Shown piece by piece: positions 14,769-54,807 of a stretch of 64,000 nt of DNA. Within the stretch, counting starts at the first letter, position 1. Every line of letters starts with the position of its first letter. The stretch is from Aurantiochytrium sp. KH105 (taxonomy: Eukaryota > Sar > Bigyra > Thraustochytrida > Thraustochytriidae). The DNA lies in contig BGKB01000062.1 in the NCBI GenBank assembly GCA_003116975.1, forward strand, positions 355,338-419,337, given 5' to 3'. The position numbers were made by a program, and so were the translations under genes. The notes below the pieces were generated by a model that was given only the letters and a program-made list of their open reading frames with translations, ran no database searches and was not told where the DNA came from.

Positions 14769-14830
14769 TCTGCGGCAAACGCTGCCTGCGCTGGTCCCTC
14801 GCGCTGCTGGCGCTGCCTGCTTCCGTGTCT

Positions 14831-14923
14831 GGCTGCCTGCCTGCCTTCCTGCCGGCCTGTCTGCCTGTCTACCTGCCTGTCTGTCTGCCTGCCTGCCTGC
14901 TTGTCTGTCTGCCTGCCCGCCTG
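14831..14923. repeat. Imperfect CTGC/CTGT tetranucleotide tract
   Basis: About 93 nt of CTGC and CTGT units beginning about 60 nt from the ATG of the minus-strand gene, so probably in its 5' leader as GCAG/ACAG. Confidence 0.85.
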
Positions 14924-14990
14924 GGAAGGTGGTTGCAGGTTTGTTGTTTGGTTGTTTTGGTGTTTGCTTCTTGGTCGTTTGCCTCTTTGG

Positions 14991-15107
14991 CTTTTTCTTT
15001 TCTTTTTCCTTTTTCTTTTTTCTTTTTTCTTTTTCTTTTTTTTTTTTTTTCTTTTTTTTCNNNNNNNNNNNNNNTTTTTTTTCTTTTTTCCTTTCTTCCT
15101 TTCTTCG
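14991..15107. repeat. Poly-pyrimidine tract interrupted by assembly gap
   Basis: T-rich run with sparse C on both sides of an N block at 15061-15074. True length is unknown. Confidence 0.9.
15061..15074. other. Assembly gap (14 N)
   Basis: Fourteen Ns inside the poly-pyrimidine tract. The size may be a placeholder. Confidence 0.98.
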
Positions 15108-15920
15108 GCCGCCGATGCGTCTGTCTGCTTTGTTTTTTTCTTTTGTCCTTTAATCGCTCGCCCGCTTGCCTGCCTCGGCTCGGCTCGGCTCGGCTCGGCC
15201 CGACTCGGCTCCGCTCCGCGACCCGGTCGCACGCTCTGGCGGCGGCCCGCCTCTTTCTCCTGCTTTCTGCCCGCCCGCTCCCTGGCCGCGCGCTGCCGCT
15301 CCTCCAAAGCGCAGCGAAGGCGGTTTGCCGCCCCTCGCCCCGCCCTGCCGTCCCTCCTCTCCTCCCAGGAGGGAGGGAGCAGGAAGAGGAAGCGAGCCAG
15401 GGGGCAGCGCAGAAAAGGCAGGAGAGGGGGTAAGAGAGAGGCGCCGGCTGCGGAGGCGGGGCGCAGAGATGGAAGCGCGCGCCGCGGCGGCGGATCAGCG
15501 AATCGAGTGAGGCAGGCGGGCAGGCAGCCAGGCAGAGACCGGGAGGGAGGGAGGGAGGAGGGAGGAAAGAGGCGGTTGCGGCGAGTGCAGCCCGTGCGGA
15601 CGCGCGCGGGCGAGCCTGCAGCGAGGGCTGGGAGAGGAGGCGAAGGCGTGAGCAAGGGGAACCGTCCGTCGTCGCCGAGGGGCTGCGAATCATCATTCTC
15701 TCTCTTGCTCTCTCGCAACAGCAAGCAAGTGCCAGAGAAACAAAGAAAGAAAGAAAGAAAGAAAGACGCACGTGGGAAAAAAAAAATTCAACGCAAAGTC
15801 TCAAAAAAAAAAAAGAACAGCGTGCCAGACACTCGGAGAGAAAAAGAAATTGGTGAAAGAATGAAAGAAGTATCAAAAGTTGGAAGCCCTAAGCTGCGGG
15901 AAGGTGGACGCCCGTCCCGG

Positions 15921-50719: not shown

Positions 50720-52846
50720 TTACTCTTCAGCCTCTTCGTCGTCATCGTCGTCGTCGTCGTCGTCAAATCCCTCGTCCTCATCCGAGAACTCGTAAACAAA
50801 GTGCTCCGGACGAACCGAGATACGTACAGAGCCACCAGGTGTAAAGTTGCCCTTGATGCCATCGTCGAGAACCGCCTCGGTGTCGACCTTGGCCTTAGTC
50901 TGGCCCATTTGTGGCGTCAACGATCCCGCAGCCGATTCGCTTCGTTGCCCCGCCTGGGCCCCGCGAAGGTGCCGCCCTGCGACCTTGCGGCGTTTCGCAA
51001 CACCGGCAATGTAGCGGTCAGCTCGTCGTCGTTCCTCCTCGTTGATATATTGCAAATCGTCTTGGTCATCCTCGCCCTCGCTTTCTCCAGCAACGCGGAC
51101 GTCGACGCTGGCACCCTCATCTTGAGCAGCTCCTGCTCGACTTCCTTTTCCTTTAAGTCCACGGCGAGCGGCAGGACGCTCAGCCGAAGCAAGTGCCTTG
51201 GGATTGGGTGTAGCGATGCTCGTATCAAAATCAAAGTTGAAATCGCTCTCATCACTTTGCGCTTGGTCTTCCGCGTTGTCCAAGTCCCGGGACTCTGCGC
51301 GAGTCTTGCCTTGCGCCAGCCTCTTTCGGAATGGCGTTGCTGCAAAGAGGTCATCCGTATGATCACGCTCGGAGGCGCGAAAGACTTCCCGGACTTGGCC
51401 GCGGAACTTGGCCGTGTTTCGACCCGCCAATTTACGCATCCGCCCTGGCTCACGCTTTTCTTTCGACGTGGCATTTCGACCTTGGTCTGCGTTGTTTGTT
51501 TGGCCGCCACGTTTTATGTCAAGAGCCGAACGTCCTTGACTAGTGTTGAGAAACCATTGGTTGTAGCATTGTTGCGCTGTGCGACCCGGAACAAAGTGAG
51601 CGACATGCGACCAGAATTTTGCGTGCGTCGGATCTGCTCTTGCGTGGCCCTCGCGCAGCAAACGATTTTCTTTGGCAGTCCACTCCCCATTGCGCGGACC
51701 TCGGACAAGTTCGCGAGCCTCGGCTGCGACACTTTCGTCCTCGTCGGAAGATTCGCTCTCGCTCTCGCTCTCGCTCTCACTGTCAGCTTGATCAACATTC
51801 GCGTGTCGAACCAAACTTTGTCGTGCTGCGGGGCTGTCGTACTCGCGGTAGTTTACGGAGCCCTTGGTACGTAAACGCCGGCTCCGTCGTACGGCAGCGT
51901 CGTCGGCAGGATCTTCGTCCTTGTCACCAACATCCTGTTCGCCTTTCTCCCCGCCAACATTGCTTTCGTTAACGCGATCGTCTCGCCCCGACACGCGCCT
52001 GCGCCGTCTGCAAGGCGGGCGCACGGGCTCGTCAAGCTCTTGCATGTTGAGCGAATCCAAAAATTCATTGGCTTCGTATGGATTCGCATCACTCTTTGTG
52101 GCGCGGCTTGAGGCTTGTGTTGCCCCCTTGCGCTTCTTGATCGATCGCCGCTGCGCCTTTGAGTTGGAGACTTCATCACGTTGACTTGCCACTTTCTTCT
52201 CCGCGTCATGGTTAGCGTGTTGAATCGGTTTTGCATGAGACTTGATGGCTACTTTGTCATTTACTGAGGTCGTTGTACGATCATTCTTTGGTGGGTTTGG
52301 TTTTCTCTTTTTCTGCTTGGAAGGTTGTGCCGTCCTTTTTTCGGAACTCCACTTTGCGAAAATATCATGCCAATTTGAAGGAAAGCCATGCTGAAAGTCC
52401 GAAATTTCGATTCCACACGGGAGCGCCCATCGAGGGTCTTTCTTGTTTGGAGGCCCCTCCAGCTGGTACAAGTTGCCCGAACTTGTCTTTAGGAGCCTCG
52501 CGTCCACACGATCCTTGATGATGGAGGAGCCCCAGGCTTGCGAGGGTTTCTGAGAAGAGCCTACGGTCCTTCCGCTGAGATACACTTGACATGAGTCTGG
52601 CCGCGCGCGTTGAATGCACCAGTGCGTAAGGACCAGAGGTGCTCGGGCTTGTTTTGCCCCATTTTCCTTGCCCTCGCGAGGCACTTTACTCGCAGGCCGC
52701 TTCTTATCGTGGGTCCGCTCATCGCTTTTGCGTGTGGACCCCAGCCGCTTGAGCTCCTCCTTGCCGCGCGAAGTAGAAGAGGAGGAGGAGGAGGAGGCCT
52801 CTTCACGCGAGCGCCGTGAGAAGCTCGCCAGCGATGGTGCGCTCAT
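50720..52846 (-). CDS. KNL2: KNL2/M18BP1-like centromere protein (SANTA + SANT)
   Basis: 708 residues from ATG 52844-52846. Residues about 70-166 fit the SANTA domain: a start of hydrophobic-x-x-H-W-C-I, a middle W-G-S-S-I-I-K-D-R, then S-G-N-L-Y-Q-L-E-G and H-G-F-P-S-N-W-H. Residues about 386-438 fit a SANT/Myb domain (E-W-T-A-K-E-N, F-W-S-H-V-A, R-T-A-Q-Q-C-Y-N-Q-W). SANTA followed by SANT is the layout of M18BP1/KNL2, which with Mis18 licenses CENP-A loading at centromeres. Between them, R-R-S-R-R-L-R (about 321-327) followed by a Tyr is a possible CENPC-like motif. The rest is basic/acidic and disordered, with several T-P sites, ending in a poly-Asp tail from a GTC repeat. It converges on Pescadillo and diverges from the TPxR-array gene. 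Any other SANTA-bearing nuclear protein is the alternative. Confidence 0.8.
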   Translation of the reverse strand: MSAPSLASFSRRSREEASSSSSSSTSRGKEELKRLGSTRKSDERTHDKKRPASKVPREGKENGAKQARAPLVLTHWCIQRARPDSCQVYLSGRTVGSSQKPSQAWGSSIIKDRVDARLLKTSSGNLYQLEGPPNKKDPRWALPCGIEISDFQHGFPSNWHDIFAKWSSEKRTAQPSKQKKRKPNPPKNDRTTTSVNDKVAIKSHAKPIQHANHDAEKKVASQRDEVSNSKAQRRSIKKRKGATQASSRATKSDANPYEANEFLDSLNMQELDEPVRPPCRRRRRVSGRDDRVNESNVGGEKGEQDVGDKDEDPADDAAVRRSRRLRTKGSVNYREYDSPAARQSLVRHANVDQADSESESESESESSDEDESVAAEARELVRGPRNGEWTAKENRLLREGHARADPTHAKFWSHVAHFVPGRTAQQCYNQWFLNTSQGRSALDIKRGGQTNNADQGRNATSKEKREPGRMRKLAGRNTAKFRGQVREVFRASERDHTDDLFAATPFRKRLAQGKTRAESRDLDNAEDQAQSDESDFNFDFDTSIATPNPKALASAERPAARRGLKGKGSRAGAAQDEGASVDVRVAGESEGEDDQDDLQYINEEERRRADRYIAGVAKRRKVAGRHLRGAQAGQRSESAAGSLTPQMGQTKAKVDTEAVLDDGIKGNFTPGGSVRISVRPEHFVYEFSDEDEGFDDDDDDDDDEEAEE

Positions 52847-53244: not shown

Positions 53245-54807
53245 ATGTTTGGCTTTCTCGCCAGAATCTTTGGGTTCTGCACGCCCGACGCTGCATCTGC
53301 AGCTCGCGAGGGCGCAGACCAAGAACCCTTGGCCTGCGAGACATACACGGCACCTACTCCTCACGACGCTCGCAGGGAGCACACCACCTTTGTGCAGGAA
53401 GCTGTCGTGCAGCTCGATGCTGTTGACTTTAGCGTGCAGTCCCATGTGTCTGAATCCCAGACGAGCGCTCGCCACAATCCATCGCGCTGCGCAAGCTCTG
53501 CAGGGATCCTCGAGATCTTGAATGATTCCAATGGCTCGACGGAAAGCGTTGTGTCGCGTACTTTTGATGACGCGGCAGCACAAGCCACGCCTTTTCCCTC
53601 ACAACCTTCGGACATATCAGGGACTGTCGAAAACCAGATGTCTTCGAAGCCTCTTGGGAATGAGAATCTCTCGAAGCCAGCCACGGTAGATGCTAGCGAA
53701 GAGCTCCTAACGAAAAGCGACGCCAAACCTCTCGAGTCGGCATCGTCAGAACTTCCGAAGACTGTCCAAAGTGAAGTCTTTTCAAAGACCGTCGATTCTG
53801 GCCAAGACCTCGAGATGAAGAGCGACGCCAAATCTCTTGAGTCGGCACCTTCAGAACTGCCAGCGACTGTCCCAAGTGAAGACTCATCAAAGTCCATTGA
53901 ATCTGACGAAGATCTCGAAGTCAAGAGCGACGCCAAACCTCTTGAGTTGGCATCGTTAGAATTGCCAAAGACTGTCCAAAGTGAAGACTCCTCAACGCCC
54001 ATTGAATCTGAGGATCTCTCGAAGCCGGTCATGGTACATGCCAGCGAAGACCTTGAAACGAAGAGCGATACCAAGCCTCTTGACTCCAAAACTCCGGAAA
54101 GAACCGGGTCGCCTACAGAAATCCGAAAACCTCTGCAGCACGCTCTTGCCGATACTTGTGCTGGAAATTTTGAAACGACAAGCAACTCCAAGTCTTCAAT
54201 GGATACCCCAAGCCGCAGAGCAAAAGACGACGATGTCATCGCGACGCCCTCTCGCACAGTAGAGCTTGAGAGTTCATCGTCGCTGCTTGACGAGTCACCG
54301 ATGTCAGCGCGCGGAACTCCCCTGCGTTCAGGCTCCACCGATGTTTCCTTGGCGTCGACACCGTGGCGAGGCCAACAAACAAGCAGCGAGGGAACGTTGA
54401 CACCAATGCGAAGCGAAGAGCAGTCAACTGGGCAAGACCAGCTGGAGACTCCAACACGAGACGACGCCTGCTCCGCGAAGCAATCTGCGACGCCTCTTCG
54501 CGATGCCACAAACACCCCGCTGCAAGTGAAAGCAACACCAAGTGCAAAGAAAACACCGAATGGCCCTGCTCTCGTTGCGCGCGGATTCGGAGTGACCCCA
54601 CATGATCCGAGATACCGGAGACTGCATGATCCAGATGTCCCGATTGCAGTGCACGAGAAAAGCTTCTCCAAGCGCGTCGAAAGTGCGATGCGCAGAGACG
54701 CTGTACGCCACAAGTTTCGCAAATCGCGTCAGCAGCAGCCGCCGCCGCCAGCCCCCGGACTTCAAATGCTTTCTTTTGATGAAAATGAGGACACGGGCTC
54801 CGCATGA
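53245..54807 (+). CDS. Disordered protein with internal repeats and a TPxR (CDK-type) array
   Basis: 520 residues, starting M-F-G-F-L-A-R-I-F-G-F-C, a short amphipathic or membrane-touching helix. Residues about 150-280 hold three to four copies of a roughly 35-40-residue Ser/Glu-rich repeat built around K-S-D-A-K-P-L-E-S and E-L-P-K-T-V-Q-S-E. Residues about 320-440 hold at least seven T-P-x-R sites (TPSR twice, TPLR twice, TPWR, TPMR, TPTR) plus further T-P sites, the full consensus of cyclin-dependent kinases. The C-terminal 80 residues are basic (Y-R-R-L, R-R-D-A-V-R-H-K-F-R-K) with a Pro run. I recognise no family. The site array suggests cell-cycle control, and the divergent KNL2-like neighbour makes a mitotic role worth testing; both are inference. 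It ends 13 nt from the convergent MYND gene. Confidence 0.78.
   Translation: MFGFLARIFGFCTPDAASAAREGADQEPLACETYTAPTPHDARREHTTFVQEAVVQLDAVDFSVQSHVSESQTSARHNPSRCASSAGILEILNDSNGSTESVVSRTFDDAAAQATPFPSQPSDISGTVENQMSSKPLGNENLSKPATVDASEELLTKSDAKPLESASSELPKTVQSEVFSKTVDSGQDLEMKSDAKSLESAPSELPATVPSEDSSKSIESDEDLEVKSDAKPLELASLELPKTVQSEDSSTPIESEDLSKPVMVHASEDLETKSDTKPLDSKTPERTGSPTEIRKPLQHALADTCAGNFETTSNSKSSMDTPSRRAKDDDVIATPSRTVELESSSSLLDESPMSARGTPLRSGSTDVSLASTPWRGQQTSSEGTLTPMRSEEQSTGQDQLETPTRDDACSAKQSATPLRDATNTPLQVKATPSAKKTPNGPALVARGFGVTPHDPRYRRLHDPDVPIAVHEKSFSKRVESAMRRDAVRHKFRKSRQQQPPPPAPGLQMLSFDENEDTGSA

Follow-up and report, generated by a model that had tools for sequence, protein, structure and literature searches.

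From sequence comparison we infer that a single-exon gene on the minus strand of the window, the 64,000-nucleotide stretch of DNA analysed here, encodes this organism's ortholog of KNL2/M18BP1, which in animals and plants is involved in marking centromeres; we regard this orthology as highly likely. The product would very probably add a further member to the known KNL2/M18BP1 family. The open reading frame runs from an ATG at 52846 to a TAA ending at 50720, in the place where an earlier sequence-only reading had put the gene. The same reading had taken the protein for a KNL2/M18BP1-type centromere licensing factor, and this assignment was borne out by SANTA and SANT domains scoring above their cut-offs, by an alignment with human M18BP1, by a similar stretch following the SANT domain, and by CENP-A and CENP-C candidates in the same genome. 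The features of the gene, in window coordinates, are:

50720..52846, minus strand: KNL2/M18BP1-type gene, single exon, 708 aa, ATG to TAA
52364..52633, minus strand: SANTA domain, residues 72-161 (Pfam PF09133, E 1.1e-12)
51689..52363, minus strand: linker between SANTA and SANT, residues 162-386, few hydrophobic residues
51836..51889, minus strand: residues 320-337, RRSRRLRTKGSVNYREYD, the window that comes nearest to a degenerate CENPC-like motif, though not above chance
51551..51688, minus strand: SANT/Myb domain, residues 387-432 (Pfam PF00249, E 2.2e-7)
51311..51421, minus strand: core of the post-SANT stretch, residues 476-512, containing TDDLFAATPF and aligned with human M18BP1
50723..50791, minus strand: acidic C-terminal tail, residues 686-708, recognised from the sequence and unequal in length in the two gene copies

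Domains and likeness to M18BP1

A Pfam profile search, which had been suggested as a check on the sequence-only reading, placed both domains above their curated cut-offs. The SANTA profile (PF09133) scored 48.7 bits against a cut-off of 21 and was covered from position 2 to 91 of 92, and the Myb/SANT profile (PF00249) scored 31.3 bits against 24.4, with the SANT domain lying C-terminal to SANTA as in the animal type. The Pfam boundaries (72-161 and 387-432) agree with those first estimated by eye (about 70-166, then about 386-438), and the motifs pointed out in SANTA are present as W76-C77-I78, SGNLYQL at 123-129 and GFPSNW at 154-159. In a PDB search with the whole protein, the SANTA region (query residues 63-181) aligned with human M18BP1 (9r6h, E 1.3e-4). 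Scored directly against the human letters, SANTA reached 102, with a shuffle maximum of 51 and none of 5000 shuffles as high. Five residues of the human domain, W413, H414, R421, W467 and K468, are discussed in the available text of PMC13294675, citing Walstein et al.; in our alignment W413, R421 and W467 are kept as W105, R113 and W159, and H414 and K468 are changed to G106 and H160, position 160 being R in the other gene copy. The protein also matches exactly the FxxGFPxxW sequence given as the end of the plant KNL2 SANTA domain in the part of PMC9210943 available to us.

The whole-protein PDB search yielded 19 distinct sequences at E<=10, headed by two human M18BP1 constructs (9f5w and 9r6h), and Myb chains ranked after these two (best E 1.9e-4). 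The match to 9f5w (E 2.9e-6) spans query residues 341-512, that is, the SANT domain plus flanks. This alignment begins within the tag and linker of the construct, so its first part is not homology. When the SANT domain was searched alone (residues 380-440), c-Myb was the best match (E 2.2e-10) and other Myb chains followed; human M18BP1 came 28th of 36 with E 0.34, so that among solved structures the domain is not closer to M18BP1 than to Myb, and the whole-protein score of 9f5w is owed largely to the flanks. This result led us to reject the proposition that both domains have M18BP1 as their closest relative. It may be human M18BP1 itself that has diverged; against the human letters the SANT domain scored 64 (shuffle maximum 53, none of 5000 shuffles as high). 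Judged from these comparisons, it is a SANT domain of the ordinary Myb-like sort that gives no pointer to M18BP1, so that the protein is identified chiefly by its SANTA domain, by the layout and by the post-SANT stretch.

Similarity to M18BP1 appears to reach beyond the two domains into this last stretch. The alignment with human M18BP1 starts upstream of the core, at about residue 455 (about 455-507), and scored 59 against the human letters, with a shuffle maximum of 58 and none of 5000 shuffles as high. The core (residues 475-515) scored 54, a value equalled in none of 20000 shuffles (maximum 48) and in none of 1550 windows taken from 114 other long frames (maximum 36). The stretch was picked because the whole-protein PDB search had aligned it, so it counts as good, but not independent, support; searched alone against the PDB, it gave 0 matches at E<=10. 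Two AlphaFold2 models, built from two-sequence alignments only, were poor (mean pLDDT 46.8 and 48.1), the former being beta-rich. With these low-pLDDT models Foldseek returned nothing at E<=0.001, and no M18BP1 was found among the matches listed (the best 50 of 138, and 1 of 1).

Like human M18BP1, the protein joins SANTA to a later SANT domain by a long linker within one chain, has a similar post-SANT stretch, and keeps the equivalents of SANTA W413, R421 and W467. It differs from the human protein in length (708 aa vs 1132 aa, PMC5245964, available text), in the 71 residues that precede SANTA (vs 382 in human, where SANTA occupies 383-469; PMC11315898, available text), and in having a SANT domain nearer to Myb proteins. 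SANTA and SANT are shared with chicken and Xenopus M18BP1/KNL2, and SANTA with the FxxGFPxxW end is shared with plant alphaKNL2 and betaKNL2. Unlike the SANTA + SANT layout found here, the plant proteins are described in the accessible part of PMC13294675 as SANTA + CENPC-k (alphaKNL2) and SANTA alone (betaKNL2).

Gene copies, neighbours and kinetochore genes

A second copy of the gene (L041:2981-5095:-) encodes 704 aa; the two proteins are 96% identical, and SANTA and SANT of the second copy both scored above the Pfam cut-off. The copies differ at 67 of 2112 aligned bases, with dN/dS of 0.22 over 704 aligned codons; the gene is under purifying selection. SANTA holds 5 of the 29 non-synonymous differences, and no amino-acid change falls in residues 387-438, 476-512 or 317-340, the numbers per segment being small. 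Ndc80, a histone-fold gene (L033/L034) and the SANTA gene occur in a common order, on a common strand and at similar positions on contigs C52 and C62, and on this basis the two intact copies look like haplotypes. Ndc80 lies about 175 kb from the KNL2 gene on the same contigs (C52:231314-231733 and C62:229855-230274).

The gene order around KNL2 is likewise repeated on contig C52. A Pescadillo gene on the plus strand adjoins the KNL2 gene (Pescadillo_N, E 5.5e-106), and an S/T-rich ORF of 520 aa stands head to head with it at 53245-54807 (+). This ORF contains internal repeats (SDAKPLESASSELPKTVQSE...) and many TP sites, is also present at the locus of the second copy, and gave no match at E<=0.01 in a Pfam search. 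An antisense frame of 357 aa, probably spurious, overlies the KNL2 gene at 50801-51874 (+) of the window. At about 14800-15300 the window is homopolymer-rich and contains unread bases, which appear as X in translations.

A candidate CENP-A-type H3 was found at L044:2755-3426:- and L045:3098-3769:-. It is a protein of 223 aa whose tail is long, whose loop 1 exceeds that of H3 by two residues, and which has the RWQ motif. Its best PDB matches were H3/CENP-A chimaeras (E 1.1e-36) and the next was canonical H3 (E 2.4e-35), so the CENP-A call rests on the loop and the tryptophan more than on the E-values. Vertebrate CENP-A has a hydrophobic C-terminal tail; the candidate is without one: its last residues are RRIRGD, immediately followed by an in-frame stop. 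L025 and L030 (match frame from 1501) carry another H3 variant (MARKKQTVYKAVGAKAPRM...), which is strongly diverged and does not have the loop-1 insertion.

The candidate CENP-C (L042:2768-4954:- and L043:1949-4138:+) combines a cupin domain with the motif RRSLRKRWQTLDHWKGER. At L042 the CENP-C_C profile scored 34.4 bits against a cut-off of 29; in the control, 4 of 14 prokaryote genomes also matched this profile, 0 of them above the cut-off, and here both copies are above it. The cupin matched 7by0 weakly (E 9.7e-5), and the best PDB matches of the motif, a short query, were CENP-C (E 0.023 and 0.026). An Ndc80 candidate was recovered at E 3.1e-42 and matched in none of 14 control genomes. 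The KNL2 gene thus shares its genome with putative CENP-A and CENP-C genes, as expected of KNL2/M18BP1.

The Yippee-Mis18 profile matched six times in the genome. The match L005 is YPEL-like (YPEL5 at 6.7e-20) and returned no Mis18 chain from the PDB at E<=10, and L007 resembles it and is YPEL-like by eye. We take L003 and L004 to be YPEL and L006 and L008 to be cereblon-like, also judged by eye. None of the six was recognised as Mis18, human Mis18alpha as query found no match in the genome, and Scm3/HJURP likewise gave no match. All of these are weak negatives from six-frame searches for short divergent proteins, run without a positive control, and do not establish that the genes are missing.

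Alternative readings and the linker

The gene could, in principle, encode a chromatin or transcription factor of the Myb/SANT kind, with a SANTA domain but no role at the centromere, and the SANT domain, being closest to Myb proteins when searched alone, fits such a factor. We consider it improbable: SANTA scored far above its cut-off and is described in the available text of PMC13294675 as typical of every KNL2 protein identified, there is resemblance to M18BP1 in the post-SANT stretch, and a six-frame profile search of the genome (best candidates only) confirmed 2 SANTA matches from 2 candidates, the two copies on C52 and C62, and no further SANTA. One scan of viral contigs for other SANTA sequences examined 278 pattern stretches and confirmed 0. 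The overlapping antisense ORF indicates that long frames do occur by chance in this DNA and would lend itself to an explanation of the gene as a pseudogene or a chance open frame. The likelihood of that explanation is close to nil, and it was ruled out by domain scores far above the cut-offs, two intact copies and a dN/dS of 0.22. With an ortholog of KNL2/M18BP1 as the preferred reading, there is still the matter of which type it would be. A KNL2 of the chicken, frog or plant-alpha type would bind the CENP-A nucleosome directly through a CENPC-like motif, for which residues 320-337 are the place to look; this sub-case is unlikely, although somewhat less so than a factor without a centromere role.

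The window of residues 320-337 lies between SANTA and SANT, came top with both the five-motif and the six-motif profile, has the RS-x-R spacing with an aromatic residue at the tryptophan position, and falls in a segment (residues 317-340) that is unchanged between the copies. Against it, the proline and the tryptophan itself are missing, and shuffled sequences scored as high in 474 of 3000 cases with five motifs and in 1428 of 3000 with six (the chicken motif letters were taken from 7y7i). The count was 971 of 3000 when this genome's own motif was left out of the profile and 596 of 3000 when shuffling was confined to the linker; a two-motif profile favoured a different window, equalled by 1729 of 3000 shuffles. 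A PDB search with the region gave matches at chance level only (Nbs1, E 0.31; cohesin Scc3, E 7.8). As profile scoring with shuffles gave no support, residues 320-337 were set aside as a CENPC-like motif and are listed as a weak candidate only. In chicken and Xenopus KNL2, binding to the CENP-A nucleosome is through a CENPC-like motif (PMC13021935, available text), whereas none above chance was found here. In this respect the protein resembles human and other mammalian M18BP1, from which the motif is missing according to the available text of PMC4830207; since mammals are without it, the motif is not needed for membership of the KNL2/M18BP1 family.

The linker (residues 166-384) is 14% VILMFYW and 40% charged, and the accessible part of PMC11315898 places the CENP-C-binding domain of mammalian M18BP1 in the corresponding position. 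The region on the other side of SANTA is short. Residues 1-140 of human M18BP1 form the Mis18-binding region with CDK sites (PMC5245964, available text); here SANTA begins after only 71 residues and the SP/TP sites start at residue 338, which leaves nothing recognisable as the equivalent of that N-terminal region and its CDK sites.

Putative recruitment, literature and lineage

By analogy with known family members, we infer that the protein localises to centromeres, binds CENP-C and has a role in CENP-A loading. The SANTA domain would bring it to existing centromeric chromatin, with CENP-C, or else some other inner-kinetochore component, as the most likely contact; in Xenopus, SANTA mediates CENP-C binding in metaphase (PMC13294675, available text). 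The linker, where the mammalian CENP-C-binding domain is sited, possibly shares in this recruitment, and the SANT/Myb domain may aid it by contact with DNA or chromatin. Once at the centromere, the protein would license the deposition of new CENP-A. Plants, in which Mis18 has not been identified according to the same part of PMC13294675, resemble the present case, where Mis18 was not found by weak searches; with none found, a Mis18-free arrangement is plausible here. A fuller version, which we put forward tentatively and consider more doubtful than not, is that KNL2 licenses CENP-A without Mis18, without the Mis18-binding N-terminus and without a CENPC-like motif, relying on a contact of SANTA with CENP-C and on a Myb-like SANT domain that binds DNA; the CENP-A it works with would be one without the hydrophobic C-terminal tail that CENP-C motifs normally read. 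If true, such a Mis18-free KNL2 would represent a third recruitment arrangement next to those of vertebrates and plants.

In the literature available in part to us, none of the papers listed (10 of 10, 10 of 1,114 and 4 of 4 matches) dealt, by title or start of abstract, with stramenopile KNL2 or with the kinetochores of thraustochytrids, and a further 20 papers listed of 47 mention stramenopiles 0 times. A large survey of kinetochores (PMC5579357) names KNL2, M18BP1 and Mis18 0 times in its available main text, and KNL2 and Mis18 occur 0 times in an oomycete centromere paper (PMC7082073, available text); such proteins may already be named in database annotations. Together, the KNL2 gene and the CENP-A candidate offer two handles for mapping centromeres in this organism, and such handles would be of practical use for thraustochytrids. 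A centromeric plasmid for Aurantiochytrium limacinum was made from a diatom segment, as reported in the accessible part of a 2025 paper (PMC12227449).

Should the source be a protist outside animals and plants, then KNL2 with SANTA + SANT also occurs beyond animals, and this would favour an old origin of that layout. The sequence-only reading had spoken of an early-branching, little-studied lineage. We found no support for this, as the only lineage hint, a PUFA-synthase-like gene, points to a thraustochytrid. The PUFA-synthase model matched at the ends of contigs C72 and C155 (L046 and L047) with its positions 6-1035 and 1366-1457, and its positions about 1287-2567 matched at the start of C61 and in C290; C72 also has a single acyl-carrier motif close to its end. 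The score is not specific, since the best value, 930 bits, falls short of the cut-off (1010) and matches below the cut-off turned up in 11 of 14 control genomes too. The domain names are those we presume for a PUFA synthase, and we took a gene layout in which contigs break within the carrier-protein region as a thraustochytrid sign; on that assumption, the layout of the gene in this genome makes a thraustochytrid the likely source. The carrier-protein region is where contigs C72, C155 and C61 start or stop, suggesting that repeats broke the assembly at these points.
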